A stretch of 64,000 nucleotides of DNA from Candidatus Heimdallarchaeota archaeon (GCA_016840095.1 JAEOSZ010000024.1:1-64000), one strand, 5' to 3'. Numbered from the stretch's first letter, positions 2,650 through 46,558 are shown. Notes: generated by a model from the sequence alone, not told the origin. Translations and numbers: made by a program.

Positions 2650-4059
2650 CTAAACAATCTTTGTTAACAGAGGATTTCTTTTCAAAGCTAATTCAGTTGC
2701 TTTGTTAACAAAACTTGCAGGAAATCCTGAATGCTCAAGCAAATTCTTGAACAAAACTTCAGCTTGCTCCTTATCATATAATGAAAACGAAGTAATAATA
2801 TATGACATTGAAACGAGTTTTCTTAATTCATTGAAAACTACAACGGATGCCTTCTCTAGTTGTTGATCTTTCTGTTTTTCGATAATTGATACAAAATGAT
2901 TACTTGTTTTAAATCCTTTAATATCCCCATCTATTAGGTTGATTATTGTTGCTTCTTTTACGAATTTTCCTTTAGATTTTAACTTCTCAAATTGAGATAG
3001 AGACATCCCATAAATGCCTGTATTAAGTATCTGATTATCACCTATAATGTCAAAATCTTCATCCGCCCATTGGATTATCTCTGAAACGATATGTTGATTG
3101 AATATTGATAATGTATCAATAACCAATCTTGTAGTCAGTTTATCCCCAATTACTAATACAGTTTCATTTACAATAACAGGATAGAGAATAGATTCAAGTT
3201 TGCCATCAACTGCATTATTGAGAAAAGCTAATGAAAGATCTTCAACTTCAACAGATGAAAAATAATTTCCAGAATCCTCAATGTTTTGAATTATGTCCAG
3301 AATTTCAAGCATTTCAAACTGAGAATCTTGCTCTGCTAGAATTTTGATTTTTTCAGAAATTAGTGGAAATATTCTAAACGCAATGTAATCAAGTTCTCTA
3401 GGAAACTTCAGAATGCCTAATATTGCTTGAGCTCCTTTTGAATCAATAACAACTAGTGCAGAGTGTTTTTTCTCTGGTGCTAGAAGAAGAATGCAAGCTA
3501 GCTTTTCCTGAAATTCTTGATTTAAATCATACTTCTGTAACATATTCAAAATTTCTACAGCATCCTCCTTTTTACCAACTGTTTCAATTATTTCGAAGTC
3601 AGATTCATCAAATCTGATAATACTAAAAATAAGAGGTTCAGCATCTCTTAGTGGATTCTTTGCAAAGAAAAGTGGAAGGTTGTAGATATCATGAAGTATG
3701 TGTTCCAAAATTAATTCAGCTTCACCTTCAGTGAGTAGATTTTCATCTTTCTCAAAGAGCATAGGTTCAGCACTCAAACGAATCTGTTCCATAATTTGTG
3801 TAAGCTGTTTATCTGAGAAGAGAGTCTCTTCAACTCTTGTTTCTATAATGAATATAAAATCTAAAACTTGCACAAATGAGATGTTTTTATCATGATAAGA
3901 TATAGATTGAAGTTCTTGTCTATGAACTTCTTTAGCAAAAGTAATGATGGCACTAATGAGACTTGTAGCAAGTATTTGCTGTGTTTCTGCATAAACCTCT
4001 GGTTTTGAAGCCAACAAGATTCCTGAAGAAGTTACCAAAGAAATTTGTAAGCTTCGCAT
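2650..4059 (-). CDS. longin-like N-terminus with DENN-like C-terminus, paralogue A
   Basis: A 469-residue protein, no signal peptide or membrane helix. It is a clear paralogue of the gene at 4913-6310. Residues 1-75 are the most conserved part and read as a longin/roadblock-type fold: strand ISLVTSSGILLASKP, a helix (ILATSLISAIITFAKEV), then strands around SISYHDKNISFVQVLDFIFIIET. Residues 143-240 could be a second alpha/beta sensor-like domain. Residues 278-330 (VIVNETVLVIGDKLTTRLV, then IDTLSIFNQH) resemble the cDENN core, where a strand 'GRPVVIVG' precedes a helix ending in an aromatic-Pro region. Longin plus DENN is the make-up of eukaryotic Rab/Arf/Rag regulators. The longin call is fairly sure; the DENN call is inference. 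An alternative is a Mon1-like tri-longin protein. It is probably transcribed alone. Confidence 0.6.
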   Translation of the reverse strand: MRSLQISLVTSSGILLASKPEVYAETQQILATSLISAIITFAKEVHRQELQSISYHDKNISFVQVLDFIFIIETRVEETLFSDKQLTQIMEQIRLSAEPMLFEKDENLLTEGEAELILEHILHDIYNLPLFFAKNPLRDAEPLIFSIIRFDESDFEIIETVGKKEDAVEILNMLQKYDLNQEFQEKLACILLLAPEKKHSALVVIDSKGAQAILGILKFPRELDYIAFRIFPLISEKIKILAEQDSQFEMLEILDIIQNIEDSGNYFSSVEVEDLSLAFLNNAVDGKLESILYPVIVNETVLVIGDKLTTRLVIDTLSIFNQHIVSEIIQWADEDFDIIGDNQILNTGIYGMSLSQFEKLKSKGKFVKEATIINLIDGDIKGFKTSNHFVSIIEKQKDQQLEKASVVVFNELRKLVSMSYIITSFSLYDKEQAEVLFKNLLEHSGFPASFVNKATELALKRNPLLTKIV

Positions 4060-4912: not shown

Positions 4913-6310
4913 CTAAACCAAGTAATCAATTAAAGGATTTATGTTTACTGCAAGTACAACAGCTTTCTTAAAGAAACTAGCTACATTGCCGCTTGCCGAT
5001 GAAAGACCCTTAAGTTTACTTTTGGCTTTTTCTTTATCAAAAAGAGCTAAAGAAGTTAATTCGAGACTTAGATTTACTAGTTTCTCTAAATCGTGTACGA
5101 TTTTGGTTACAACTTCAGCTATCGAAAGACGTTTGACCGTATCAAATAGTTTTTTGAAATGTGTGCTTGAATTTTCTCCATTCACTCTACTAGCTTCAAG
5201 ATTAATATTGGTTTCAGATGTGGATATTTGACCATCTTCTAACAGTTTGTTATATAATGAGGACGACATTCCACATAGTCTTGCATGTAACACACATTTA
5301 CCATTTTTTGACATGTCTTCTTCATTTATCCAAGGATTAACAGAAGTTTGTAAATGTTGAGTAAAAATGGATAACGAGTCAATAACTAATTTGACTGTAG
5401 GTTTATCTCCCACAATATAAATTGGTTCTCCAACAATTGCTGAATATATGGCTTTTTCAAAATTCTTACTGATTGTTCTATCCAAAAATGTAGGAGAGAG
5501 ATCTTCTAAATTCAATTTTGATAATCTATTACCTGGATCATCGAGTTCAATTAGACCATTAAGAATTTCCTGCATGTTTTTATCTTTTCCGAGATTCTCT
5601 AGTTCATTATTCAGAAGATTGTGAAGTCTAAACAATACTAGATTCATACTTTGAGGGAACTTTAAAACACCGACTTTGGATACATTTCCTAAAGATTCTA
5701 CAACAGTATATGCAATGCTTTTCTCATCTTCAAGAGAGGTTAGTAACCCACCAATTTTATCTTTATATCTTTCATTTGCCTTTAGATTATCTAACATCAG
5801 AGCAATCATTGGAATATGTGATCCTGAACCTACTTTGTCTTTTATTTCCCAGCCTTTATCTGAATGAATAATTGTGAAGTAAGAAATATCTGCAGTTTTC
5901 AATGGTTGTTCTGAAATGGATAGATTCAGAAGTTGTATATCTTGAAGACACCTATCTAGGATTATTGAAGCTTCACCTTCTGTTATAGCATTAGGATCAG
6001 CTCCATCCAAAAGAGGACCTGTACATGCTTTTAATTTTTCCAACAATTGATTCAAAAATTGCTCTGTTAAATTAGATTCTTCATCTATGGTTTCAAGTAT
6101 AAGAACAAAATCATGAACTCGAATAAAAGAAACTGTTCTGTCGTGATAAGATATCGATTGTAATTCTCTGTGATGTACCTCTTTTGAAAAAGAAATTAAA
6201 GCTGTCATTAAACCAGTAGCTAGAATCTGTCTTGTGTCGTCTACAGCTTCAGGTTTTGAAGCTAGTAGTATTCCAGTTGATGTTACAAGAGATATCTTAA
6301 TGTTTAGCAT
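4913..6310 (-). CDS. longin-like N-terminus with DENN-like C-terminus, paralogue B
   Basis: A 465-residue paralogue of the 2650-4059 product. The first 70 residues are more than half identical (shared ISLVTS-GILLASKPE, then SKEVHHRELQSISYHD), while the rest has drifted, so the N-terminal domain is under the tightest constraint. A middle segment holds GVLKFPQSMNLVLFRLHNLL, matching GILKFPRELDYIAFRIFPLI in paralogue A. The C-terminal part has AIVGEPIYIVGDKPTVKLV then IDSLSIFTQH, again like a cDENN strand-helix. The start at 6310 is a clean ATG. Function is unknown. Proximity to the Arf-like GTPase operon suggests, but does not prove, a GTPase-regulator role. Confidence 0.6.
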   Translation of the reverse strand: MLNIKISLVTSTGILLASKPEAVDDTRQILATGLMTALISFSKEVHHRELQSISYHDRTVSFIRVHDFVLILETIDEESNLTEQFLNQLLEKLKACTGPLLDGADPNAITEGEASIILDRCLQDIQLLNLSISEQPLKTADISYFTIIHSDKGWEIKDKVGSGSHIPMIALMLDNLKANERYKDKIGGLLTSLEDEKSIAYTVVESLGNVSKVGVLKFPQSMNLVLFRLHNLLNNELENLGKDKNMQEILNGLIELDDPGNRLSKLNLEDLSPTFLDRTISKNFEKAIYSAIVGEPIYIVGDKPTVKLVIDSLSIFTQHLQTSVNPWINEEDMSKNGKCVLHARLCGMSSSLYNKLLEDGQISTSETNINLEASRVNGENSSTHFKKLFDTVKRLSIAEVVTKIVHDLEKLVNLSLELTSLALFDKEKAKSKLKGLSSASGNVASFFKKAVVLAVNINPLIDYLV

Positions 6311-6391
6311 CTATTCATCCCTTCTAAAAGCTATATAAGAAAATTTCTTTTGGTCTATATTATGAAAAATGTGAAAAAAATTGAGATAAGG

Positions 6392-7249
6392 TTATCTCCT
6401 CTTCTCTTGATTTCTCTTATCTCTGATGATATCTAGAACTTCTGGTGTAATTGTTGAATATCCCATTTCTTTTGCTTGTTCGACTATTTGAGTCATAGCT
6501 CTTTTTAGAAATACTCTGGGTATAGCTACAATTCTCTCACAAGCTTCATCTGTCCAGAATACTTCAGGATCAAGTCTATCAGCTTGATATCTTACAGTAT
6601 CTATGTCAACACCTTTTCCTTTAGGTAGAGGTTCTTTATATGGTGCTTTATGTTCAGCGAACCAGAAATATTGATTATCTCTGTAACCATAATCTATTGG
6701 CAAACTTGGAAACTTTCCGTCTCCATTGACTAAAGACTTATACCAGTTAGGTTTTATCAAAATCTTATCAATTCTTAACAAGTAATGAGATTCGTCTTCT
6801 CTTCCTTTGTATCTAAAAATATCTTCATTGTCATCCCAAGTACAGACTATAGATTGAATAGATTCACCAATAATTGGAGGAACAACACCGTTCTCCTCAC
6901 CATCTACAGGTATTAAAGTAAAGATGCTATCATCAAGTTTCTCTTCTGCTGTTTGTCCTGGAAATCCTAAACGAACGGTATTTTTTAGAATCTTTTTGTT
7001 ATAAGGTATGAAATTTAGTACAGCCTTTTTGGTTCTCTGTATATTCATTGATGTATTACTGTCAACTCGAGATATAAGCATCATAGCATGTTTATCTGCT
7101 ATTCCAAACGGAAAAACTAGTGAGTACGGACCTATGTTTACTGCTCCAGATTCAGAATAAGTTGTTACTAATACAACTGGCATTGGATAAAAGGACGAGG
7201 TTTGATAGAAATTATCTAACACTCGTATTTCTTCGAATTTGTGTTTCAT
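6392..7249 (-). CDS. flavin-reductase-like split barrel fused to a PCP_red-like domain
   Basis: A 285-residue protein, last gene of a four-gene operon; its start is 5 bases after the 7TM gene's stop. Residues about 20-200 match FMN-binding split-barrel flavin reductases: PMPVVLVTTYSESGAVNIGPYS at the start of the fold, then an isoalloxazine-side segment (MLISRVDSNTSMNIQRTKKAVLNF). The last 54 residues (WTDEACERIVAIP, then KRAMTQIVEQAKEMGYSTIT) resemble the PCP_red domain found at the C-terminus of the ChlB subunit of dark protochlorophyllide reductase, where the pattern is W-pEA--RL--IP-FVR----R--E-yA---G---It. The reaction is unknown. The flavin fold is fairly sure; the PCP_red similarity was recognised by eye. 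Confidence 0.7.
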   Translation of the reverse strand: MKHKFEEIRVLDNFYQTSSFYPMPVVLVTTYSESGAVNIGPYSLVFPFGIADKHAMMLISRVDSNTSMNIQRTKKAVLNFIPYNKKILKNTVRLGFPGQTAEEKLDDSIFTLIPVDGEENGVVPPIIGESIQSIVCTWDDNEDIFRYKGREDESHYLLRIDKILIKPNWYKSLVNGDGKFPSLPIDYGYRDNQYFWFAEHKAPYKEPLPKGKGVDIDTVRYQADRLDPEVFWTDEACERIVAIPRVFLKRAMTQIVEQAKEMGYSTITPEVLDIIRDKRNQEKRR

Positions 7250-7254
7250 TATTT

Positions 7255-8118
7255 TCAGCTCTTAGCTATTTGTTGGTATTGTATCTCAAACCAAGATCTT
7301 TTTCGTATCATCTTCCTGAACCATGTTGGCATTATCCATCCTAAGTACATTAGAACATAAGCACCAGCAAAAGATAGGGCTCTTAATGCTGCAATAGTCA
7401 TCATCAAGGCAGGAATAGTTGCTAATTGTGCATCAAATGCAGATAACATTCCTCCAAGCAAATATAATATTGTTCCAAGCCCAATTGTTTGTAGTCCTCT
7501 TTTTCTTACTGGTTGATCAGATTTTCTGGATAATCTCCATGCTCTCCAACCAATTCTTCCTGTAACATAGATTGAAACAATTATCTGTACTAATTGAATA
7601 ACTAAGTAATAGGATACAGTAAATAGTTGAGGTGTAATACTAACTGCCTCTGAAAAGAACAGAGGATTAACATATAAGTCATCTAGCAACAACGAGTATA
7701 CTGGTGAAGATGCAAAAACATCGTACCCAACAAGTGCAGTTGCCATTCCAAAGAAGAACATTAAGAAAGCAAAAATGAAAATCCTAACAATCTCATTATC
7801 TTTCAAAATGTGTCTGCAAGCAAAAATATAGAGAAAGCCAAAAGCAGGAAGAAGCATCAATGGTCCTAATGCTGCAAGCAAATAAGTTAACTCATTAATT
7901 ACTGCTCCATTAAAAATGAATGATATCCTATATGCAATACTTACTGCTGAAGTCGCTGAAAAGAAGATATAGGCAAAAAGGAGCATGAAAGTTCCAATAG
8001 TTCTTTTCCTAAAGAAATTGACTAGTAAGAAAATCACCAAAGTAAAACTGAATAAGAAATTGATTATTGATGTAATCATGAGAAAATAAGTTGAAGTATC
8101 TAAAACTGGAATAGCCAC
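7255..8118 (-). CDS. seven-transmembrane-helix protein in a small-GTPase operon
   Basis: A 287-residue integral membrane protein with seven hydrophobic segments at about residues 11-35, 41-63, 75-100, 110-133, 163-186, 208-228 and 233-262. Loops are short except for an acidic one (DDLYVNPLFFSEAVS) between helices 4 and 5 and a strongly basic one (RIGWRAWRLSRKSDQPVRKR) between helices 5 and 6. The C-terminal tail is basic (RKMIRKRSW), and the positive-inside rule places it in the cytoplasm. The gene starts 5 bases after the Arf-like GTPase stop, so the two are co-expressed and probably co-translated. No family was recognised. A receptor or membrane anchor for the GTPase is a guess from context. 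Confidence 0.7.
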   Translation of the reverse strand: MAIPVLDTSTYFLMITSIINFLFSFTLVIFLLVNFFRKRTIGTFMLLFAYIFFSATSAVSIAYRISFIFNGAVINELTYLLAALGPLMLLPAFGFLYIFACRHILKDNEIVRIFIFAFLMFFFGMATALVGYDVFASSPVYSLLLDDLYVNPLFFSEAVSITPQLFTVSYYLVIQLVQIIVSIYVTGRIGWRAWRLSRKSDQPVRKRGLQTIGLGTILYLLGGMLSAFDAQLATIPALMMTIAALRALSFAGAYVLMYLGWIMPTWFRKMIRKRSWFEIQYQQIAKS

Positions 8119-8123
8119 TTATT

Positions 8124-8651
8124 TCACCCCATGAACTCTTCTACAAACCATTTGAAAGCGTCAAAAATCCCTTCTCCTGTCTTTGCAGATGTTTCGAAAA
8201 CTGCCCATTTAAATGGCAAATCTAGTAAGTTGAATTCTTCAATAAACTGAGTTTTTTCAATAACATCAGTAACATCACTTTTGTTAAGCAGTACTAAGAT
8301 ATTAAGCTCGTTTCCAAGCTGTGCACTTACTGTTTGTTGAAAGACATTTTTAGCTTCTTCGAATCTCATTGCATTGGATCTATCAACTACAAATACTATT
8401 CCATCAGATTTCTCATTTATGCTATGCCACATATTTCGGAAATCTTCCTGACCAGCTAAATCAAATACATTGATTTGTAGATTAGGTAAATGCAAAGTTT
8501 CTCTGTTAACACCCATAGTAGGTGTTGTTTCTACGAATTCTCCTGTTTCCAAGTATCGTAATATTGTTGTTTTTCCAGCATCATCTAAACCACATATGGT
8601 TATATCAGCATGCTTGGATTTGCTTTTGAATAAGTTACGTAAGAATGACAT
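8124..8651 (-). CDS. Arf-family small GTPase
   Basis: A 175-residue Ras-superfamily GTPase of the Arf/SRP-receptor-beta type. All G-motifs are present: G1 GLDDAGKTT (21-29), switch I threonine in PTMG (T45), G3 DLAGQ (64-68; the DxxGQ form is typical of Arf), G4 NKSD (123-126) and G5 TSAK (154-157). The N-terminus (MSFLRNLFKSKSK) is short, basic and amphipathic as in Arf proteins, but residue 2 is Ser, so there is no N-myristoylation signal. It would cycle between GTP and GDP states at a membrane. It sits between a longin gene (12 bases upstream) and a 7TM gene (5 bases downstream), suggesting those are its partners. Confidence 0.92.
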   Translation of the reverse strand: MSFLRNLFKSKSKHADITICGLDDAGKTTILRYLETGEFVETTPTMGVNRETLHLPNLQINVFDLAGQEDFRNMWHSINEKSDGIVFVVDRSNAMRFEEAKNVFQQTVSAQLGNELNILVLLNKSDVTDVIEKTQFIEEFNLLDLPFKWAVFETSAKTGEGIFDAFKWFVEEFMG

Positions 8652-8663
8652 CTCTTTCCCTCA

Positions 8664-9158
8664 TTAATCCCATAAGTCATCAGATAATTTTTCAATAGCA
8701 TTTCCATTTGGATCTTGACTCTGTTTTGGAAAATCAAATGTTATGGTTGAAGTCGAAGTAATTTCAATTTTGAAAGTACCTTTATTGAAGCCTTTGTATA
8801 GTTTCGGTAAAATCTCTTGAAGTGTTCCTGTTGAGAGAAGGTCTTTCTTCTCTAACTCTGTTATCACCCAAGAAAACACCTGCTTTATGGCGTTTGAGTC
8901 ATAATTGGTAGAGTCGAATACAGCTACTAAAGAGGCTAGATTATCTCTTTGCTCTGCAGAAGGAATTCTAAAGATGTAGCTAGTAAGATTCAGATTGTTG
9001 AAAGTTGTTGAAGCAAAATCCCCAGGACTTGATCCCATAGGAATGGTTTTGTAAACTAGCTGATTCATCGAATCAGCTGGTATGACATCGGGAAAAGTTT
9101 TGACTAATTCTAATCCCCTAGTGCCCATATTGATTAGACATAAACTTAACGGTTTCAT
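8664..9158 (-). CDS. longin-domain-like protein, first gene of the GTPase operon
   Basis: A 164-residue protein. The frame is open further upstream to 9254, but the ATG at 9158 is preferred because it has a good ribosome site (AAGGGG, 7 bases upstream) and starts directly at a beta strand (MKPLSLCLINMGTRGLELV). Predicted order is strand, strand, helix, three strands (LNLTSYIFRIPS and LASLVAVFDS visible), helix (AIKQVFSWVITELEKK), helix (LQEILPKLYKGF), which is the longin/roadblock arrangement. A Ser/Thr- and Asp-rich tail ends DDLWD. In Asgard archaea and eukaryotes such domains bind and regulate small GTPases, and an Arf-like GTPase follows 12 bases later. The fold call is an inference from pattern and context. 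Confidence 0.6.
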   Translation of the reverse strand: MKPLSLCLINMGTRGLELVKTFPDVIPADSMNQLVYKTIPMGSSPGDFASTTFNNLNLTSYIFRIPSAEQRDNLASLVAVFDSTNYDSNAIKQVFSWVITELEKKDLLSTGTLQEILPKLYKGFNKGTFKIEITSTSTITFDFPKQSQDPNGNAIEKLSDDLWD

Positions 9159-9190: not shown

Positions 9191-9306
9191 CTTTAAATAT
9201 GTTTTCAAAACTGCAAACTCCCGTTTCTAAAGGTTTTATCCGCGGATTATGCAAAATTTGATGTGTGTAAAAATATGCACACCGACAAATAACTGAACGG
9301 TGTTCA
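9191..9306 (-). promoter_or_regulatory. promoter with three dyads ahead of the GTPase operon
   Basis: On the minus strand a TATA-like CATATTTAAAG lies at 9191-9201, about 35 bases before the ATG at 9158, leaving a short leader that carries the AAGGGG ribosome site. Further upstream are three inverted repeats: the perfect 10-base ATCCGCGGAT (9238-9247, strikingly GC-rich for this DNA), GTGTG-N10-CACAC (9263-9282), and TGAAC-GGT-GTTCA (9294-9306). The rest of the spacer up to 9438 shows nothing clear. The dyads are directly seen; a regulatory role is inferred. Confidence 0.45.
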
Positions 9307-18159: not shown

Positions 18160-20073
18160 TTAATCTAAGTATTTAGACTTGAATTCTTCCCACCCTATCA
18201 TTTTTATTCCGAAACCGTCAGCTTGTTCTTGTCTTTTTTCTCCAGGATTTTCTGCTAGTACCAAATAATCCAAAGTTTTAGTAACACCATTAGCAAAATC
18301 TATTCCTTTATCTTCTAACATTGCTTTCAGTTCTGTTTTTGTAATTCCTTCAACTTTACCTGTAACATATATTTTCATTTGTTTTATCACCTTTGTTTTG
18401 TCTTGATCAGTGATTCTTGATTTTATCTCAGGATAGATGATTTTGACTCCATTCTTGAATAGGTTGCTATATCGTTCAGTTTCTCTAACTCCTTCATAAA
18501 TGAATTTTGCTGTAATATGAGAGATCCCTTCTAGTTCCTGCAATTTATCCATGGAAGCAGTTTTAAGTTCTTCAAAGTTTTTAAAAGAATTAGCAAGTTT
18601 TTTACCCATTGTAGTTCCTAACTTCTCAATACCCATAGCAGCTAGAAAAGTTCTGAAAGGAAGCTCTCGAGTAGAGTTGATTGAAGTAAATATCTTTTCT
18701 CCATTTCTCCCTAATAGGTTAACCAGTTGTTCTTCAGTAATAGCGTATAAATCTGAATAGTGTTTGATTAAATCTGCATCGAAGAGCTTCTCTAAACTTT
18801 TACCTCCGATACCATCTATTCCAGTTTTACGTATCCAAGCACCAATTTGCTGAATTGATCTATCTCTACAAAAATCGCCAGTACAAAGGAGATTAACTCC
18901 AGACTTAATTGTCTCTGAACCACATGAAGGACATTGTTTTGGAAGTCGTGATTTTCCTGTTGAATTCTTAGCTGTCACACTAATGATTTTAGGAATCACT
19001 TCTCCAGATCTCTCTACATATACAAAATCACCTGGTTTAGCATCTAAATCTAATAAGAAATCTGCATTGTGCATAGTTGCCCTGCTGATAACAGCTCCTG
19101 AAATTTCGACAGGTTCCAATTCAGCTACAGGAGTTAGAACGGAAGTTCTTCCAACTTGCCAAGTGATATCTTTTAGTTTTGTAGATTTACCTTTGCTTTC
19201 AAATTTCAAGGCAATTTGCCATCGAGGATGGTGATCTGTTGCTCCAACAGCTTCTCTATCAGCTACCAAATTATACTTGAAAACAACTCCATCTATTTCA
19301 TAATCTAAGTTATCTCTTTCTCCTTCAACTTTTCTGAAATGTTTGTCTACTATTTCGAAAGTTGGAGAATCAATACTAAGGAAATCTGATGTTTCAAAAC
19401 CCCATGATTTCAAAGTTTGTGCTTTTTCATTAATTGTTGAATCATCTTTCCAACCCAACAACTCAAAAGCCATAAAATTCAGGACACGATCTTCCATCAT
19501 TTTTGCATCTTTCTGTTTGGCTGTCCCAGCAGCTAAGTTTCTAGGGTTACTATATCGTTCATCTTCAGGAAGAGAATCATTAATTCGATTAAATTCGGAG
19601 ATTCTCATATAGAGTTCTCCTCGAATCTCAATACGATCTTCAAATGGAAGAGTTTTAGGAATTGCCTTGATTTTCATCACATTCAATGTTACGTCATCAC
19701 CATGAGTACCTGAACCTCTTGTAGCAGCTTGAATAAATTTAGTATTTTCGAATATCAGTTTAAGAGATATTCCATCGATCTTGTACCCCATCATCAAAGG
19801 ACGATTATCTGCCCAAGAAATGATTTTCTCAACAGTTTTAGCTTTTTGACAAGAAAGCATAGGAGGATTGTGAACTATATTTCCTCCAATAGGAGCACCT
19901 ACAATGAATAAAACAGGATTTTCTGGATCAATGACTCTTAATCTATCTTCCAAACTGTCATACTCTGCATCTGAAATCTCGGGTTGTCCATCATAATATT
20001 TTCTTTTATGATAGAGAATTAAATCCTCAAGTTGTTCTTTTTCCTCATCCAACAAATCAATCACTAATCTCAT
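18160..20073 (-). CDS. ligA: NAD-dependent DNA ligase LigA
   Basis: A complete 637-residue LigA. In order: domain Ia with the NMN-binding YHKRKYYDGQPEISDAEYDSL region (21-41), adenylation domain with the active-site lysine in KIDG (K98-G101), DGVVFKYN motif (261-268), OB fold (VGRTSVLTPVAELEPV), four-cysteine zinc finger (C381, C384, C397, C402), helix-hairpin-helix repeats (about 420-540), and a C-terminal BRCT domain (566-637). It seals nicks using NAD+ instead of ATP. Most archaea use an ATP-dependent ligase; NAD-dependent ligases are known in haloarchaea and scattered others, so this is probably an ancient transfer from bacteria. Base use is like its neighbours, so the acquisition is not recent. 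Confidence 0.96.
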   Translation of the reverse strand: MRLVIDLLDEEKEQLEDLILYHKRKYYDGQPEISDAEYDSLEDRLRVIDPENPVLFIVGAPIGGNIVHNPPMLSCQKAKTVEKIISWADNRPLMMGYKIDGISLKLIFENTKFIQAATRGSGTHGDDVTLNVMKIKAIPKTLPFEDRIEIRGELYMRISEFNRINDSLPEDERYSNPRNLAAGTAKQKDAKMMEDRVLNFMAFELLGWKDDSTINEKAQTLKSWGFETSDFLSIDSPTFEIVDKHFRKVEGERDNLDYEIDGVVFKYNLVADREAVGATDHHPRWQIALKFESKGKSTKLKDITWQVGRTSVLTPVAELEPVEISGAVISRATMHNADFLLDLDAKPGDFVYVERSGEVIPKIISVTAKNSTGKSRLPKQCPSCGSETIKSGVNLLCTGDFCRDRSIQQIGAWIRKTGIDGIGGKSLEKLFDADLIKHYSDLYAITEEQLVNLLGRNGEKIFTSINSTRELPFRTFLAAMGIEKLGTTMGKKLANSFKNFEELKTASMDKLQELEGISHITAKFIYEGVRETERYSNLFKNGVKIIYPEIKSRITDQDKTKVIKQMKIYVTGKVEGITKTELKAMLEDKGIDFANGVTKTLDYLVLAENPGEKRQEQADGFGIKMIGWEEFKSKYLD

Positions 20074-21865: not shown

Positions 21866-23365
21866 TTATTTCATTGCAGATTTTATTACTTCATCTATTT
21901 CCTTTCTCTTTGACAAGTCTTTATTTTCAAAAACTCTCTTTGTTATGGTAGCAATCTTGTTTTCTATTTTTGAGTCAAAAACTGGTATTTTAACATTACT
22001 CATTATTCTTTGAGTATATGAGATTCGATGCCCTCTTCTTCCACCTTCTGATAGATAATATTCTCTAAAAAAATTGCTGTTCAGATAACCAAGAATGAAG
22101 TAAGGATCTTTCTTCTGTGGAATTATGGTAAGCACATCTCCTGAAGGAAGATAGGGTTTGTTTGATAAACTAAATCTGTTCTTGATACTGCGATCTAAGC
22201 TCGGAACGAATATTTTTGGTTCGAATAAAAGGGATTTTAGTTTTTCATAATTTCTCAAAGCTTGCCAATGAAACCACTTATTACTAGCTGGAAAATATCT
22301 AACTGTCATACTTTCCTTGAATGATAGTAATTTTTCGTATAAGTTTGGATAACTCTGCAGTTCCTTTTCCGAGTTAATTCTTTTATCTATGAGTAAATAG
22401 TTCTCATATCCTTCAGTCCAGAAACCTGTACAGTGCTTAGATTTGATTGCTTTAACTAAGAATTTCTTCTCATCTTCATTAAAATTTGAAATGTCTTCTT
22501 CATCAACAATAAAAGCATGTTCATAACCAGAAACTAGTCCTACACCAATCCAGCAAATATCTTTTAGAAGAATATAGTTTGAGATTATAGTCTCTGGATA
22601 AGTTGTCCAGACTTCATTTTCTTTTGTAAACATTTCCCTTTCATAGTATGTAAAGATATCATTTTCTAATGTTGTGGAAAATACTTCAATAGCTTTCTTG
22701 TAGATTATTCCAGGTTTTGTTTTTCTGTTTTTGATTCTTAAAATTCTAATTTTTTGATGCGGTTCTTTTGAACTTTTGGTAAACTTGAAAATCAATGTTT
22801 CAGGATTTTCTCCCTCAAATAATCTTGTTTCGTCCAGATCAATAATAATATCCAAACTTCCATTTTCAATTATTTTATCGCGAACAACTTTAGCATACGT
22901 GTTAAAGAAGAAACTATAAGGCACAATATAAATCAATTCCCCACCTTCCTTCAATAAGTCAATTGACTTTAGTATGAATGCATAGTAGATGTCTGATTCT
23001 TTATTCCCAACAATTCTAACTACTTTGGATCTTGTTGCTTTTGGTAGAGAATTATAATGTGTATATGGAGGATTACCTATAATTAAATCGTACTCCTTGA
23101 GATTCATCCAGTCTAAATAATCATCATTGTAAATTTTAACCTCTGGAAAATTTTCATAACAATAATCATAAAGTTCTTTGCTTAATTCAATACCTTCTAA
23201 ATTTGTGAACTTGGAGTTTAGAAGACTTTTAAGAAACATTCCCTTCCCACAACCAGAATCAAGGATATCTATAGATTTCTGTCTCTTCTTATCTTCAGAT
23301 ATTAATGATACCATTAGATTTACAATATCTTGAGGAGTCTGAACAAAAGCAATAGTATCATTCAT
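21866..23365 (-). CDS. N6-adenine DNA methyltransferase, TaqI-like
   Basis: A 499-residue gamma-class N6-adenine methyltransferase. The ATG at 23365 is preferred (GAGTGA upstream) over a GTG four codons earlier. SAM motif I reads DSGCGKGMFLKSLL, the catalytic motif IV is NPPYTHYN, and a C-terminal target-recognition part like that of M.TaqI (FEPKIFVPSLDRS, then SGDVLTIIP and a YLNSNFFREYYLS helix) follows. Such enzymes methylate adenine in a defined DNA site. A downstream gene of unknown function may be its partner; if not, this is an orphan methylase. Unlike type IIG fusions there is no nuclease domain in the same chain. Confidence 0.88.
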   Translation of the reverse strand: MNDTIAFVQTPQDIVNLMVSLISEDKKRQKSIDILDSGCGKGMFLKSLLNSKFTNLEGIELSKELYDYCYENFPEVKIYNDDYLDWMNLKEYDLIIGNPPYTHYNSLPKATRSKVVRIVGNKESDIYYAFILKSIDLLKEGGELIYIVPYSFFFNTYAKVVRDKIIENGSLDIIIDLDETRLFEGENPETLIFKFTKSSKEPHQKIRILRIKNRKTKPGIIYKKAIEVFSTTLENDIFTYYEREMFTKENEVWTTYPETIISNYILLKDICWIGVGLVSGYEHAFIVDEEDISNFNEDEKKFLVKAIKSKHCTGFWTEGYENYLLIDKRINSEKELQSYPNLYEKLLSFKESMTVRYFPASNKWFHWQALRNYEKLKSLLFEPKIFVPSLDRSIKNRFSLSNKPYLPSGDVLTIIPQKKDPYFILGYLNSNFFREYYLSEGGRRGHRISYTQRIMSNVKIPVFDSKIENKIATITKRVFENKDLSKRKEIDEVIKSAMK

Positions 23366-23515
23366 TAGAAGAGTCACTCACTAGTTTGCTATTGCTTTTC
23401 ATTTAAAAGTCAATTGGAAAAGAATACTAGTTAATCAACTAATTCTTGGAAAATGAAAAAGAATTTAAATTCAACTTAAAAAGGTTCATAATTAGAAACT
23501 ATTAGAGGAAAAAAT

Positions 23516-28189: not shown

Positions 28190-29899
28190 TTAAGAGTAGA
28201 GAAAAGTCTCCATAACCAATTTTTCATGAATTTCCTCATACATAGCTATGATTGTTTCTTTTGCCAGTTCCTTTGCAAATTTACGCTTAATTCTATCTTC
28301 CGGTTTTCTCTTTTTCCATAAGTTTGAAACAAGCTGATAAAATAATTTAACAAAATAGTAGAGACTCAATGGTAATGCAAGAATTACTTTGAATAAAAAC
28401 AATAAAGCTTTCCAAAGCATTCCTAAAGATTTCTTAGCTTCTTCTCTAGTTGCTTCATCTAATTCCTCATGAGGTTCATCTGCAAGGAGCATAGAATTCA
28501 AACCCTTTTGGATTTCGATAAATTTTGAACCGAGATAAACTCCAGATCTTTTAGTCCAATCTTTTGAAAACATTATCTTGAATCGACCTCCAATGTGTCG
28601 TCCATAATGATAAAAAATCAGGAAAAATTCTACAAAAGGCATGAAAAAGCCTACAACCATGTTTCTGAGTTTCTTAGCAGTTCGAACAAACCACTTTTCT
28701 TTTGCAAGATGATCTAGAAAATACCTTTGTCCTCCAAGAGCTATTGAAAATGCTAATTGATTATATTCCAAATCGCTAAAGGGAAGGTTAAACTTATTTT
28801 CAACCTTCATTATTCCTTTCAAAGCTCCAGTAAGCATGATTGAGCTGAAAAATTCTTTAGAAACAAATTCTTCATCTAATTTCTTTCTAACAAAATTAAA
28901 AGTTTGCTTAGCTTCTCTGTATTTCATGGAATTTCTTTCAGCAAAACTAGCTAAACCTGGTTCTTTTCTAAATGGAATAACGTATGTTTCTTTTTGCCAG
29001 AGAAGAAGAGAAAAAACTCTGGAAATAGAGTCTTCGATGTTATTCATATCAAGTCTTTCTTCAGTATCTGAGGAGAGAAACTCCTCATAAAGATTCTTTG
29101 TTTTTTCAGGTAAAGAAAACGTAGAAACACTAACTATATTCGTGAATCGTTCACGTAATGTTGTTAAATCACCTACAAGATCAAACTTGAATTCTTCATA
29201 AGTAGAAGCATCTACTGGTGGAGCTTCAAAAAAAGAAAAACTAGCTTTAGAAGCTAAATACGGAAGAGAAAAGAGGTTTTCTAATCTCTGGTAAAATGAT
29301 CCCCAACTATATGCCCCCATCTTGATTAACCTCATACTTGCATTATGGAAAATGGCATAAATTGGACCAAAAATAGTAGCAACAAAAGATAACATTCCCA
29401 TAACGGTAGAACAGATTACACCGATAAGAGTGATAACTATCCAGAGAGCCTTATCACCGAGACTAGTTAACCATTCGCTATTTTTGATTAACTCATCGAT
29501 AAGGGCATCAAAACTGATGGTTTGGCTGCCTATAAGGACAACAGAAGCTGCAATAATAAATACGATAATCAAGAGGTGATCGTAAGTTTCTCCAACACCT
29601 CTTTGAATAGGGTAAGCTTTATTGATTCTATCTTCCTTCATAACAACTTCATCAATCTCTTCTTCAAGCTTAACTAGTTCCATTTTTTCAGGGCTAGAGA
29701 AAAGATTAGAAATATAAAGTAGATACTTTCTCCAAAGATTGAGAATAGGTACTAGTTCACGAAGACCACGAGGGATTAGTAATTCGTAAATGAAAAAGAA
29801 TAATTTAGCAAGAACTACAGCAACATAGAGGATGACTCCAACTATCCAAAGGAAAGGAGTGGCAATTGCAGTAAGAATATTGCTAAGAAATTTTTTCAT
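28190..29899 (-). CDS. large membrane protein of the FF(D/E)APP family, member 1
   Basis: A 569-residue protein starting at ATG 29899 and paralogous to the genes at 44382 and 46559. It has an N-terminal membrane helix pair, the motif IPRGLRELVP (about 43-52), an acidic linker (KLEEEIDEVVMKED), two more membrane helices, then GAYSWGSFYQRLENLFSLPY and SFSFFEAPPV. A soluble helical domain of about 200 residues is followed by another membrane hairpin (VVGFFMPFVEFFLIFYHYG), a final membrane segment and a basic tail ending AMYEEIHEKLVME. No named family was recognised. Motif conservation among three diverged copies shows it is a real, maintained family, likely on the inner face of the membrane. Confidence 0.7.
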   Translation of the reverse strand: MKKFLSNILTAIATPFLWIVGVILYVAVVLAKLFFFIYELLIPRGLRELVPILNLWRKYLLYISNLFSSPEKMELVKLEEEIDEVVMKEDRINKAYPIQRGVGETYDHLLIIVFIIAASVVLIGSQTISFDALIDELIKNSEWLTSLGDKALWIVITLIGVICSTVMGMLSFVATIFGPIYAIFHNASMRLIKMGAYSWGSFYQRLENLFSLPYLASKASFSFFEAPPVDASTYEEFKFDLVGDLTTLRERFTNIVSVSTFSLPEKTKNLYEEFLSSDTEERLDMNNIEDSISRVFSLLLWQKETYVIPFRKEPGLASFAERNSMKYREAKQTFNFVRKKLDEEFVSKEFFSSIMLTGALKGIMKVENKFNLPFSDLEYNQLAFSIALGGQRYFLDHLAKEKWFVRTAKKLRNMVVGFFMPFVEFFLIFYHYGRHIGGRFKIMFSKDWTKRSGVYLGSKFIEIQKGLNSMLLADEPHEELDEATREEAKKSLGMLWKALLFLFKVILALPLSLYYFVKLFYQLVSNLWKKRKPEDRIKRKFAKELAKETIIAMYEEIHEKLVMETFLYS

Positions 29900-29978
29900 G
29901 TACAATACAAATCTACACTACTACGTTTTTAATTTTGTGATAGAAAAAAATCGAGTAAAAAGGAGAGAAAAAAGAAAA

Positions 29979-40473: not shown

Positions 40474-41211
40474 TCATCTTTCTTCTTTTATTTTTAATTT
40501 TTTAATCATTTTATCTGCAGCTGCACGTTTAGCTGATTTCCTATTTGACCCTTTTCCTGAACTTAAATACTCTTTATCTCCAATTTTTGCTTTACATTGC
40601 ATTAGGAATTTTGGTTCATGGTCTTCACCTTCTCTTGCTATGAGAGAGTACTCTGGAAGAGCTAATCCCTCTTTTTGGAAAAATTCTTGGAGTTGATTAA
40701 TTGGGTTAAGTTCACAAACTGTTAGTTTTAGTATTCTTTCTCTTCCTTTTTCATCATTGATTTCATTCTTGAAATGTTTTAATCTTTGGAGGAAGAGTTC
40801 GTAGAAGAAATCTCTTGTAATATCAACACCTTTTGAAAGATAAAATGCACCAAAAATAGCTTCTAAACTATCTTCAAGATCTGTTTCAACTATTCTATAA
40901 TTTGGTTCAGTTCTAAGTTTTTTAGCAATTCCCAATTCTTTCCCTACTTCAGCCAAAGTATTTGTTCTAACTAATAGAGAACGGAGTTGTGAAAGAATTC
41001 CTACATCTTCATCAGTTTCATTATAGAGCCATTCAGCAGTTAAAGTATCAAGTATAGAATCACCTAGAAATTCCAGTCTTTCGAAGTTCTTAACAGGTTC
41101 AGGCTGTTGATGATAATTGGGATGAGTCAAAGCTTCCAATAAAAGAGCTGTATCTATATTCCAATCTAGAATTTTGCTATTTTCTAAATCTATTTTCTTA
41201 GATTTATTCAT
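40474..41211 (-). CDS. rnc: ribonuclease III
   Basis: A complete 245-residue RNase III. The signature is ERLEFLGDS (44-52) with E44, E47 and D51, and the second catalytic pair is D114 and E117 in EDSLEAIFGAFYL, so all metal-binding acids are kept. A double-stranded RNA-binding domain fills residues 168-241 (NPINQLQEFFQKEGLALPEY and GSNRKSAKRAAADKMIKKL). It cleaves double-stranded RNA such as rRNA precursors. RNase III is uncommon in archaea, where bulge-helix-bulge endonuclease normally does pre-rRNA cutting, so this gene is notable. Confidence 0.95.
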   Translation of the reverse strand: MNKSKKIDLENSKILDWNIDTALLLEALTHPNYHQQPEPVKNFERLEFLGDSILDTLTAEWLYNETDEDVGILSQLRSLLVRTNTLAEVGKELGIAKKLRTEPNYRIVETDLEDSLEAIFGAFYLSKGVDITRDFFYELFLQRLKHFKNEINDEKGRERILKLTVCELNPINQLQEFFQKEGLALPEYSLIAREGEDHEPKFLMQCKAKIGDKEYLSSGKGSNRKSAKRAAADKMIKKLKIKEER

Positions 41212-42372: not shown

Positions 42373-44328
42373 ATGGGTTCAGTCAATTTTCTAGAAGAAA
42401 TGTTGTTTCAAATAGATAATCAGATTCTTGAAAGAGATATCCTTGGAAGCAATGATATCTTACATAGTTTTAAGATTCTTGGCGGACTATATCTTGTTCA
42501 TTGTTTAGAAAATTATAAAGTAATTGAACCAGCTTTATCCTTCAAAGAAAAAATCTTGAAAGCTTCTGATATACTTCCATCAATAATTGATACAAGTATA
42601 CTAGAAGATTACTCCAAAATTTATCAAACCATTAATAACACCAAAAAGAGATTTGGAGCGGAAACTAGTGTAGATCCGCTTGGAGAGATCTATCAAGGTA
42701 TATTGACTAAGACAGATAAACAAGGACAAGGAATTATATTTACTCCTATTTCAGTAATCAAATATATTCTCCATCAATTAGGATACCCAAATAAATCTAC
42801 AATAGAAAACAATCAGAATATCATTGACCTATCATCAGGGTCAGGTTTGTTTCTTGCTCAAGCTGTTAAATTGATAATGAAAGATAATCTTGAAACTAAA
42901 TCTATTGTTGATATAATCAAATATATTCAAGAAAATGTTGTTGGATTTGATGTTGATCCTATTGCAGTTTTTATTTCAAAATTTAATTTAGCTCTAACAA
43001 TAATTAATGAAGCTGAAGGTAAAATTGGTAGTGGTTCATCCTTTATTCCAAATATTCATCACACAAATTCATTGAACACGAAAGCCAAAAAGGAAATTTC
43101 TGATGTTAAAACAGCTAAACTGCAACTTTATGATTTTGTTGTTGGTAATCCACCATATATTGAAGCTAAACGGATGGATCCCAAAACAAAGAATCTTTGC
43201 TTACAAAATTTTCCCAAAGCTGCAAGAGCTCATTTTGATGTTTATTCTTGCTTTGTAGAACTGGGAATAGATATGTTAAAAGCTAAAGGAAAACTAGGAT
43301 ATATAATTCCTAGTAAATTTCTTAGTTCAAGATATTCAAAAGAAATGAGAAGATATCTACTTGAGAATCACCTTATATCTGAAATCGTAGATTTGACTCA
43401 TCAAAAAGTGTTCCAACCAGCTGTTTACCCGATTATTCTCCTATTAGATAAGAGTAATCAAGAGAAAAATACAATCAAACTGGCGCACAATGTTACCTAT
43501 GACGAGTTACTTACCGAGAACATTCATTCAAAAATTATGAGCATTGATTCTACAGTTTTCAGTAAAACCACGAATAAAACAATCTTTCTTCCAGATTTTA
43601 TCTCTCTCTCAATCATTGAAAAAATATTAAGCAGAGCTGATTTTACTCTAGGAGACTTGATAAAGTTTAGATGGTCAATATCTTTTCATAGAAAGGGATT
43701 AAGAGAGCATTTTGTTTTTGATAAACCCATAAGTGACAAATCTAAGAAATTTCTTGGGGGAAAACCATTTGGTGGAAACAGAGAAGTAGAAAGGTACGGT
43801 ATAAATTGGAAAGGATTTTACCTTGAATATGACCATGACAAAGCCAAAGGAATGAAAAACAATTTTCCTAAAATTGAAATCTTTACTTCGAAAAAGATAA
43901 TCATTTGCCAACATGCCTTGAGAATGAGAGCAACTTTAGATGAGACAGGCTTTGTTTGTAAAGATATCTTCCTGTTAGGTCATTTAAAGCAAGAAGCTAG
44001 AGATTTAGGAATTAGTCTTGAATTTATTTTGTCATTATTAAATTCAGAACTATTCAGTTATCTTTATTCGATCATGTACTCTAGTACTGAAATAACTGGA
44101 AAATACCTTCATTACCTACCAATGTATCTGCATGATTTACCTTTCATTTTCCCAGAGAATAATCTGAAAGAAGAGCTCCACGATAAAGTAAAGATATTGC
44201 TTGAAGAAAAGCATCTAATTCCTTCAATTGATTCAGAAATTGATAATCTTGTTTACGTTTTATTTCAATTAGATGAAAAAGAGAGAAAATGTGTAAAAAG
44301 ACATATAAGTCAATATCTTGTGAAATAA
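42373..44328 (+). CDS. large N6-adenine DNA methyltransferase
   Basis: A 651-residue gamma-class adenine methyltransferase. An N-terminal helical part (1-100) leads to LGEIYQGILTKTDKQGQGIIFTP, the usual lead-in of type I/IIG methylases, then SAM motif I DLSSGSGLFLAQA, an acidic VGFDVDPIAV and the catalytic NPPYIEAKR. After about residue 400 comes a TaqI-C-like recognition domain (SISFHRKGLREHFVFD to KIEIFTSKKIIICQHALRMRA, and YLHYLPMYLHDLPF). No nuclease motif or neighbouring restriction subunit is seen, so it looks like an orphan methylase. It is only distantly related to the one at 21866. Confidence 0.88.
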   Translation: MGSVNFLEEMLFQIDNQILERDILGSNDILHSFKILGGLYLVHCLENYKVIEPALSFKEKILKASDILPSIIDTSILEDYSKIYQTINNTKKRFGAETSVDPLGEIYQGILTKTDKQGQGIIFTPISVIKYILHQLGYPNKSTIENNQNIIDLSSGSGLFLAQAVKLIMKDNLETKSIVDIIKYIQENVVGFDVDPIAVFISKFNLALTIINEAEGKIGSGSSFIPNIHHTNSLNTKAKKEISDVKTAKLQLYDFVVGNPPYIEAKRMDPKTKNLCLQNFPKAARAHFDVYSCFVELGIDMLKAKGKLGYIIPSKFLSSRYSKEMRRYLLENHLISEIVDLTHQKVFQPAVYPIILLLDKSNQEKNTIKLAHNVTYDELLTENIHSKIMSIDSTVFSKTTNKTIFLPDFISLSIIEKILSRADFTLGDLIKFRWSISFHRKGLREHFVFDKPISDKSKKFLGGKPFGGNREVERYGINWKGFYLEYDHDKAKGMKNNFPKIEIFTSKKIIICQHALRMRATLDETGFVCKDIFLLGHLKQEARDLGISLEFILSLLNSELFSYLYSIMYSSTEITGKYLHYLPMYLHDLPFIFPENNLKEELHDKVKILLEEKHLIPSIDSEIDNLVYVLFQLDEKERKCVKRHISQYLVK

Positions 44329-44381: not shown

Positions 44382-46502
44382 ATGTCAAATAAAGAAAAAC
44401 CACCTGAAAAAAATGAGTTGAATACAAAAAATGGTTTTTCTAAAAGAATGAAAGAATTTGGTTCTAAACAGATTGAAAAGATAAAAGAAACTTCAAATCA
44501 TCTTCAAGAAAAAATTCTAAAGGGATTGGGGAAGTTTTGGGTGTGGTTTAAGGCAAAAAGCAAAGAAGCTTGGGAATTCTTAAATGAATATGTTTTTCAT
44601 TATTACACTCCCTTAGGTTTTATATTACTGTTTGAATACTACATATTCATTTGGCCAATTTTGAAATTTTTCAAATATTTCTTTCTCATCCTTTATCCAC
44701 CTAGATTAAGGAGATTTACAAAAGAGAAACTTAAAGCTTTGTGGCATAAATTGCAAACTAAAGTGTTCCCACTTTTAATGAGAGCTTCTTTCATTATTCT
44801 ATCTGTACTATTTACTATAGTTTCCGCAGTAGGAAAGTTTAGCTTGACTGTTTTTGATATATTTGTCCCAAGAGGTTTAAGAGAGTTGGTTCCCTTACTA
44901 CAAATGTATAGAAAATATCTTCTTACTGCAGCAAATTTTCTTTCAGGTCAAAAATCCAAAGAAATTCTGGAAGTCTCTCAGGAGCTTGATGAGATAGTTA
45001 AGAAAGAGAGACAAATGATGAAAGCTTACCCTATGAGACGAGCTTTTGGAGAAGTCATCAATGTAGCTATTGGTACTCCATTGATTATTATAGCTATCCC
45101 AACAATAATTGTAAGAATATTCAAAATAGGATATGCAGTCTTCTTTTTCTCTTTCCCCCATTTATCAACACTAGGACCTTTGGGTGCCCCCAATTTATTC
45201 AAAAATCTTGATCTAATTTATATTTTCGAACATTGGTTTAATCTCAAACCTATATGGACAATAACTCTCTTTGGTACTGGTCTTCTTGTTGTTTCTTGGA
45301 TAGCAACAATTTTTGGTCCAATTTATGCATTATTTCATCAGTGTAGTCTATATCTTATGAGATGGGGAGCTTATAGATGGGCAAACATATACAGAAGTCT
45401 TGAAAACTTCTTTTCTCTGCCATATCATGCAGCTAAATCTTCTTTTAGCTTTTTTGATGCACCACCTGTTTCTACGGAAACAATGGTTGACTTTAGATTA
45501 GAAATCACGGAGGAAGTAACCGCTATGAAAGAGAAAGTTCAACAACTGCTTACTCTTGATTCAAGAAAAGTTCCAGATAGATCTAAAGGGAATCTTGAAA
45601 GTTTGTTAAACGAAGCGGAACTCTCACTAAACGAATTAGATATATCCAAAATTACTAGCCAAACTGGAAGAATCTTTGCTCTATTAATTTGGGATAATGA
45701 ATCCTCTGCTATACCTTGGATCAGACAAGAAGCAAAAATTAGATTTGCCAAGAAAAATGATATGAGCAGAAAAGAAGTTAATAAAGCTTTCAAAGTTATT
45801 CTCAAAAAAATAGATGAAGGATATATTAGTGAAGATCTCTTCTCCTCAGTTCTTATAACTGGAGCCCTCAAAGGAGTAGCTAAGCAACAGACAAAATATG
45901 AGCAGATCATGCCAGATGTAGAATATCACAAACTTGCTATCTCTTTAGCTCTTGGTGCTCAACAATACATCAAAGATGAATTTACAGGTATTCCATGGTA
46001 TATTAAATATGGTAAAAAACTAGCTGTGTTGATTGTTGCACCTTTAATGCCTTTTGTGATGTTGTTTTACATCTTCTACAGATATATTAGACATATTCTA
46101 GTTTCATTCTTCACAACTATTCTATCAATAGGTACAAGAAAAACTATTAGATTTTTCTCACACAGATTTAAAGAAATATCTGAAACTCTTACTACAACTT
46201 ATGATTCTGTTAGACAAAGGGGGAGATCCTTTAGTTTCAAGGAAGATCTTAACATTGATTTTGTTTCAATTTTCAAGACTGGTTTAATCTTTCTCATCAA
46301 ACTTATTCCAATGATAATATGGTTATTCTTTAAGGGAATCTATAATTTCATAAGTCCAATCTGGACAAGAAGAAGTTTAGAAGAAAAACAACAAAGATCC
46401 TTTGAAAGAGATTTAACTACAGAATCTCTAATTGCAATGTACGAAGAAATATATGACAAATTATTGATAACAGATTTACTTCTAACTCGTGAAACTGTTT
46501 GA
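44382..46502 (+). CDS. large membrane protein of the FF(D/E)APP family, member 2
   Basis: A 706-residue member with an N-terminal extension of about 130 residues (charged helix, one membrane helix YTPLGFILLFEYYIFIW) not found in the other two copies. It then follows the family plan: membrane helix, VPRGLRELVP, acidic-basic linker, two membrane helices, GAYRWANIYRSLENFFSLPY and SFSFFDAPPV, a soluble helical domain with KVPDRSKGNLESLLNEAEL and LITGALKGV, a membrane hairpin, a GRSFSFKEDLN motif, a last membrane segment and the tail ESLIAMYEEIYDKLL. No known family was recognised. It is followed 56 bases later by member 3. Confidence 0.7.
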   Translation: MSNKEKPPEKNELNTKNGFSKRMKEFGSKQIEKIKETSNHLQEKILKGLGKFWVWFKAKSKEAWEFLNEYVFHYYTPLGFILLFEYYIFIWPILKFFKYFFLILYPPRLRRFTKEKLKALWHKLQTKVFPLLMRASFIILSVLFTIVSAVGKFSLTVFDIFVPRGLRELVPLLQMYRKYLLTAANFLSGQKSKEILEVSQELDEIVKKERQMMKAYPMRRAFGEVINVAIGTPLIIIAIPTIIVRIFKIGYAVFFFSFPHLSTLGPLGAPNLFKNLDLIYIFEHWFNLKPIWTITLFGTGLLVVSWIATIFGPIYALFHQCSLYLMRWGAYRWANIYRSLENFFSLPYHAAKSSFSFFDAPPVSTETMVDFRLEITEEVTAMKEKVQQLLTLDSRKVPDRSKGNLESLLNEAELSLNELDISKITSQTGRIFALLIWDNESSAIPWIRQEAKIRFAKKNDMSRKEVNKAFKVILKKIDEGYISEDLFSSVLITGALKGVAKQQTKYEQIMPDVEYHKLAISLALGAQQYIKDEFTGIPWYIKYGKKLAVLIVAPLMPFVMLFYIFYRYIRHILVSFFTTILSIGTRKTIRFFSHRFKEISETLTTTYDSVRQRGRSFSFKEDLNIDFVSIFKTGLIFLIKLIPMIIWLFFKGIYNFISPIWTRRSLEEKQQRSFERDLTTESLIAMYEEIYDKLLITDLLLTRETV

Positions 46503-46558
46503 TTTTCCCTTTTGATAGTTACGCAACTTTAAAATTTACCTTTGATATTGTTTATGTA

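Follow-up and report, generated by a model that had tools for sequence, protein, structure and literature searches.

A longin-fold protein, an Arf-family GTPase and a seven-helix membrane protein (7TM protein) are encoded side by side in a Heimdall-type Asgard archaeon, and these three genes form a conserved core that recurs in related genomes. We read the trio, with moderate confidence, as a membrane GTPase switch cassette, in which the 7TM protein would provide the input, the Arf would be the switch, and the longin would be the dedicated regulator of the Arf, most likely a GAP.

The analyzed DNA (the window) is a stretch of 64 kb and is part of a 3.4-Mb MAG of the archaeon. On the minus strand, between positions 9158 and 6392, four co-directional genes were identified from the ORFs and the sequence in the order longin, Arf, 7TM protein, and flavoprotein. 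They are separated by exactly 12, 5, and 5 bases. The single tight unit described in the sequence-only reading was thus borne out. Of the four products that it had named, the first three are each supported: the longin by AlphaFold2, the complete Arf by PF00025, and the seven-helix protein by helix prediction with positive charges inside. The features of the unit and its upstream and downstream regions are as follows.

8664-9158, minus strand: longin-fold protein of 164 aa, first gene of the unit (ORF with ATG start; AlphaFold2 topology; family alignment)
8124-8651, minus strand: Arf-family GTPase of 175 aa (PF00025; clade; alignment)
7255-8118, minus strand: seven-helix membrane protein of 287 aa, GTG start (AlphaFold2; positive-inside pattern; conservation)
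6392-7249, minus strand: flavin-reductase-like (FMN-binding) protein of 285 aa (weak PF01613 match; 1eje; distribution and remnant)
9191-9200, minus strand: TATA-like element ATATTTAAAG preceding the longin gene (sequence read by eye)
6331-6338: TATA-like element of the gene for a 465-aa neighbour (read by eye)
4913-6310, minus strand: 465-aa protein with an N-terminal INTU/CCZ1-type longin domain (PF19031, E = 0.001, below the cut-off)

Since the TATA-like element lies at 9200-9191, a TTG start of the longin at position 9254 is less likely. Judging from the TATA-like elements in front of the longin gene and in front of the gene for the 465-aa longin-type neighbour, the four genes probably share a single transcript, and the neighbour probably has its own.

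To follow the unit in other genomes, profile searches were performed on 228 genomes of the phylum. Twenty-eight close copies of the 7TM gene were detected, all within two lineages, namely the genus of the window's archaeon and another family of the class. The longin gene is directly upstream, on the same strand, of all 28 copies. The Arf gene is between the two in 20 loci (one with a broken Arf frame), and the other eight are longin-7TM pairs without Arf. This recurrence of the three-gene order in 20 loci and of the pair in eight more is far beyond chance. Therefore, the order that the sequence-only reading had asked to be checked in Asgard relatives is conserved for the trio, and its idea of a conserved module acting as a membrane-linked GTPase switch gains support as probable from this conservation. 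The cassette is present in only 5 of the 21 genomes of its own genus; thus, it is not essential there, which counts against the cassette reading. The second family carries several copies per genome (six each in G043 and G041, five in G037). Within one triad of G041, the Arf contains in-frame stops (G041:C60:42311-42802), indicating decay.

The gene order is kept down to 20-35% identity of the 7TM proteins. In a comparison of 18 triads, longin, Arf, and 7TM distances agree with each other (r = 0.90, 0.85, and 0.93), and none of 2,000 permutations gave values as high. The agreement also held when only the second family, which contains many paralogous copies, was considered. Thus, the trio was duplicated and inherited as a unit.

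Diverged members of the 7TM family are spread through the phylum and carry the marker YLGxxMPxW at the end of helix 7. At the 19 loci that were read, a small GTPase was found close to the 7TM relative in six, and 13 have no GTPase neighbour. In family f20, the diverged 7TM gene is near an Arf with an N-terminal extension. In family f28, a Ras-type GTPase is directly upstream of the diverged 7TM gene, with a protein of ~85 aa between them. As a control, twenty stretches (387 kb in total), taken from some of these genomes as well as from other Asgard genomes, were searched, and one Arf match was obtained. Even against a denser background of one GTPase per 60 kb, the number of GTPase-7TM neighbours corresponds to a Poisson p of 5e-4. 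In three loci (L177:4835-6402, L185:949-2546, and L189:414-1947), the Ras-type GTPase, an ~85-aa cysteine-containing protein and the 7TM relative form a parallel trio.

These data bear on the alternative that the genes are only co-expressed housekeeping neighbours and that the 7TM protein is a transporter or an enzyme without direct contact with the GTPase. The lack of a recognised family for the 7TM protein and the 13 loci without a GTPase neighbour point in this direction. However, mere co-expression would have to account for an order kept at such low 7TM identity, for the co-duplication and the congruent distances, and for the Arf and Ras genes that independently neighbour members of the 7TM family in other Asgard families. 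We regard it as very unlikely.

The fourth gene behaves differently. The flavoprotein matched PF01613 with an E of 6e-5, which is under the curated cut-off, and an FMN-binding protein in the PDB (1eje) with an E of 9e-6. It stands beside the trio in only part of the genus. It is absent from the triads of the second family; in G037, it is encoded on another contig, apart from the triads. In G001, only a remnant with a stop was found (G001:C11:94309-94488). The flavoprotein is a lineage-specific passenger outside the conserved core. The flavin or redox output suggested in the sequence-only reading was dropped on this distribution.

The Arf matched PF00025 with an E of 6e-42 and a score of 143.5 bits (cut-off, 22.3 bits) and possesses a complete G domain. 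Its best matches in the PDB and in Foldseek are Arfs and ArfRs. The N-terminal sequence MSFLxxLF, an amphipathic-type helix, is conserved in the triad Arfs and appears as a short helix in the model. Gln68, at the catalytic position, is invariant in all aligned triad Arfs. The protein resembles the Asgard ArfRs (GerdArfR1 and HodArfR1; PDB 8oum, 8oun, and 8ouk) in family, N-terminal helix and catalytic-position glutamine, and the window Arf is ~35% identical to GerdArfR1 in the fold match. Unlike those ArfRs, the triad Arfs form a single clade of their own (support 100/99) and are accompanied by longin and 7TM genes.

The structure of the longin was predicted by AlphaFold2 with 58 sequences. 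The input was an in-frame read-through longin-Arf construct from the window DNA, in which stop codons were read as residues, and it served for modelling only. The predicted topology, b1-b2-a1-b3-b4-b5-a2-a3, is the canonical one, with pLDDT mostly above 90; the longin fold, for which the sequence-only reading had called for structure prediction, is therefore confidently predicted. In Pfam (53 members) and PDB profile searches, no sequence-level match was obtained for the longin. The family alignment revealed a conserved C-terminal DDLW motif. The 164-aa protein contains no DENN domain, and further longin-type proteins are encoded beside the unit. One residue of the longin, Arg71, deserves a separate entry.

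8946-8948, minus strand: codon of Arg71 of the longin, candidate arginine finger (loop position in the model; conservation)

In the model, Arg71 is in the loop between b4 (56-65) and b5 (73-81). We compared module longins, encoded as part of a triad, of a longin-7TM pair or of a distant Arf module, with orphan longins, which stand alone. All 41 module longins have Arg71, compared with 6 of the 12 orphan longins (Fisher p = 4e-5, a value that is not free of shared ancestry, which weakens the p-value but not the pattern). In the tree, the arginine was lost about four separate times, and every loss is in orphan longins. Three orphan longins without Arg71 in the second lineage (L116, L117, and L118) lie in the vicinity of other conserved genes. 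One such neighbour in L116 and in L118 starts with MTLDKLEDKFVAVVEDVLPSVVSVYTT and MFQGLEKNLVEVVDDILPCVVSVSTT, respectively, and by eye the product is possibly a trypsin-like protease.

In published longin/DENN GAPs, the catalytic arginine is in the b4-b5 loop (PMC12803157). In the ARF1-C9orf72-SMCR8 structure, Arg147 of SMCR8 points to the phosphate mimic in the ARF1 active site (PMC8213707). Since Arg71 is invariant at the longin-GAP position and the Arf glutamine is invariant as well, the longin would be a regulator of the Arf, with GAP as its likeliest role. The multimeric longin GAPs described so far work with a pair of longin domains. A single small longin would thus need to form a homodimer or to borrow a partner, which speaks against the GAP reading. 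Furthermore, the eight longin-7TM pairs without Arf keep Arg71, so that the longin may serve other GTPases or have another role. The fused longin-Arf model had a pTM of 0.52, with good domains but no confident relative placement and no confident interface, and it was made with a shallow alignment and a short linker; this counts against the cassette reading.

The longin might instead be an exchange factor, a scaffold or an effector of the Arf. Longin heterodimers serve as such in TRAPP and Mon1-Ccz1, and the SRP receptor contacts its Arf-like partner through a longin domain. Longin and roadblock platforms are mainly GEFs and only sometimes GAPs (PMC10933270). The sole PDB sequence match of the longin to a longin protein, MON1, points the same way but is weak and not significant (E = 1.7). 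In addition, the C-terminal extension of the distant Arfs described below looks longin-like by eye (Pfam support of only E = 0.11, in one of five), and together with a free longin it would suit a two-longin platform. However, none of these roles needs an invariant arginine in the GAP loop, and the arginine is lost only in longins without a module. Thus, we consider an exchange factor, scaffold or effector role only a tentative alternative to the GAP.

The longin profile also reaches the Asgard families f18, f19, and f20, with E values of about 1e-12 to 1e-19. In these families, the longin gene is mostly beside or near an Arf of 300 aa with a C-terminal extension, and a pair of small multi-pass membrane proteins is usually encoded there as well. 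Of three genomes checked, two (G146 and G089) have the longin-linked Arfs as their best Arf matches. These Arfs form their own clade, and a sister relation with the triad Arfs was not found in the tree, a result against the cassette reading. Thus, longin and Arf either became linked early and diverged later, or became linked on more than one occasion. The pair of membrane proteins was considered as a source of 7TM homologues, and no such homology was detectable; hhalign did relate the two to each other (probability 95).

Flavoproteins also lie near some of the longin loci. In L122:1644-6906, and similarly in L126-L132, the distant longin-Arf module is preceded by a longin-like protein of 250 aa and an FAD oxidoreductase. 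In L103 and L106, a ferredoxin-nitroreductase precedes the longin-7TM pair. Flavoproteins of three different families are therefore found near such modules, perhaps by chance.

The AlphaFold2 model of the 7TM protein shows seven helices, with a pLDDT of 90.3 and a pTM of 0.85. Judging from the charges, the N-terminus is outside and the C-terminus is inside, with the positive charges inside. Two further elements were assigned by DSSP on the model.

7609-7653, minus strand: beta hairpin in the outer loop between helices 4 and 5, residues 156-170
7261-7326, minus strand: basic helix after helix 7, residues 265-286, at the place of GPCR helix 8

Conservation of the 7TM family is one-sided. The mean relative entropy is 2.14 inside versus 1.36 outside (p = 4e-9), and all 15 of the most conserved positions are on the inner half. 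This fits what is expected of a sensor, with a variable input and a fixed coupling face.

In the Foldseek search against the PDB, which is rich in GPCRs, the top 50 matches were all GPCRs of classes A, B, and C. These fold matches are weak (E = 3e-4 to 1e-2; TM by query length, about 0.40-0.54; rmsd, 6-11 A). No Pfam GPCR family was found in any member of the 7TM family and no PDB sequence match was obtained; the window protein had no Pfam match at all. The GPCR motifs DRY, NPxxY, and the disulfide between helix 3 and the outer loop were looked for and not found, and the window protein has a single cysteine, located where helix 3 ends on the inner side. Since the PDB is rich in GPCRs and neither a sequence match nor a motif was detected, the likeness of the 7TM protein to GPCRs is a resemblance, not membership. 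It is improbable, in our estimate, that the 7TM protein is a GPCR-like receptor acting as the Arf exchange factor with the longin as the built-in GAP.

The mechanism proposed here for the cassette starts from the computed gene order, conservation, co-inheritance, longin and 7TM models, invariant Arg71 and one-sided 7TM conservation. The 7TM protein would be the membrane part, and its variable outer side would sense something. The conserved inner side would hold the GTPase or act on it, as an exchange factor or an anchor. The Arf would cycle between GDP and GTP and dock on the membrane via its N-terminal helix. The longin would insert Arg71 into the Arf active site and switch the Arf off, as SMCR8 does for ARF1. 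We infer here physical contact of the longin, Arf, and 7TM proteins, GAP activity and receptor function, together with the direction of the 7TM action and any ligand.

A membrane-remodelling or vesicle unit was also considered, in which the Arf would deform the membrane under control of the longin, and the 7TM protein would be a cargo, a scramblase or an anchor. Its model is haloarchaeal ArvABC, likewise an archaeal small-GTPase operon with two partners, in which ArvA drives vesicle formation (PMC10927574). GTP-bound Asgard ArfRs also move to membranes (reviewed in PMC12554972). However, the GTPase of ArvABC belongs to another family, and its partners ArvB (DUF2073) and ArvC (DUF2072) have no counterpart in the unit. 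Moreover, the variable outside and conserved inside of the 7TM protein fit a sensor better, and the presence of as many as six diverged copies in one genome points to different inputs. A remodelling unit is thus an unlikely explanation.

Several other genes of the window were noted. The proteins encoded at 2650-4059 and 4913-6310 (minus strand) are paralogues with 38% identity and an N-terminal INTU/CCZ1-type longin. A later stretch, IVGDKPTVKLVIDSLSIF, resembles a DENN domain by eye only. Related genomes likewise have these paralogues after the unit, and a second longin could come from them. Two large membrane proteins without Pfam matches (44382-46502 and 46499-48295, plus strand) are tandem paralogues with 44% identity; another one without a Pfam match (28190-29905, minus strand) looks related to this pair by eye. 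A complete NAD-dependent DNA ligase of the LigA type with BRCT, mainly a bacterial enzyme, is encoded at 18160-20073 (minus strand), and a ribonuclease III with a double-stranded RNA binding domain, which is unusual for archaea, at 40474-41211 (minus strand). Two Eco57I-type DNA methylase genes (21866-23377, minus strand; 42373-44328, plus strand) are possible remains of restriction-modification.

We compared the cassette with known systems. The eukaryotic longin GAPs (SMCR8-C9orf72 for ARF1; FLCN-FNIP and NPRL2/GATOR1 for Rags; Avl9/DENND6 for Arf/Arl) share with it the longin fold, the invariant arginine of the b4-b5 loop and, judged by gene order, an Arf as the partner. In contrast to them, the archaeal longin is a free 164-aa protein without DENN and without a sequence-level match, a putative GAP, and its gene shares one operon with those of its GTPase and a 7TM protein. 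With GPCR - G-alpha - RGS systems, the cassette has in common the layout of a 7TM protein with an outside N-terminus, a GTPase and a candidate GAP, and the likeness extends to the hairpin between helices 4 and 5, the helix after helix 7 and the top 50 fold matches. However, the fold match is weak, GPCR sequence families and motifs are lacking, and an Arf replaces the heterotrimeric G protein. MglA-MglB and TRAPP / Mon1-Ccz1 also pair a small GTPase with a roadblock or longin regulator, but they have no 7TM partner, and the longin described here has a candidate catalytic arginine. The unit differs from SRP receptor alpha/beta in that the 164-aa longin has no NG domain and the Arf lacks a membrane-spanning helix.

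Arf- and Ras-like GTPases number in the dozens in Asgard archaea, and the Heimdall-type members of this group are the archaea closest to eukaryotes. According to a structural survey, Asgard GTPase genes are generally not in operons with longin or roadblock genes, and consequently GTPases cannot be matched to their regulators from the genome layout (PMC10933270). The trio is a clear exception, because it names a GTPase, its likely regulator, a membrane partner and one testable catalytic residue. Its parts are of known kinds (an ArfR GTPase and a longin), and the longin-Arf-7TM operon is apparently unreported; this novelty is provisional, as no report was found in the open literature searched and recent papers were possibly missed. 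With three small proteins, the origin of longin-type GAPs and the control of Arf-family GTPases by membrane receptors would become testable in vitro. If the reading as receptor, GTPase, and GAP is true, the cassette would correspond, in a prokaryote, to GPCR - G protein - RGS signalling and might even be related to it; the eukaryotic longin-DENN GAPs would then have developed from the simple form seen in the single-longin GAP.
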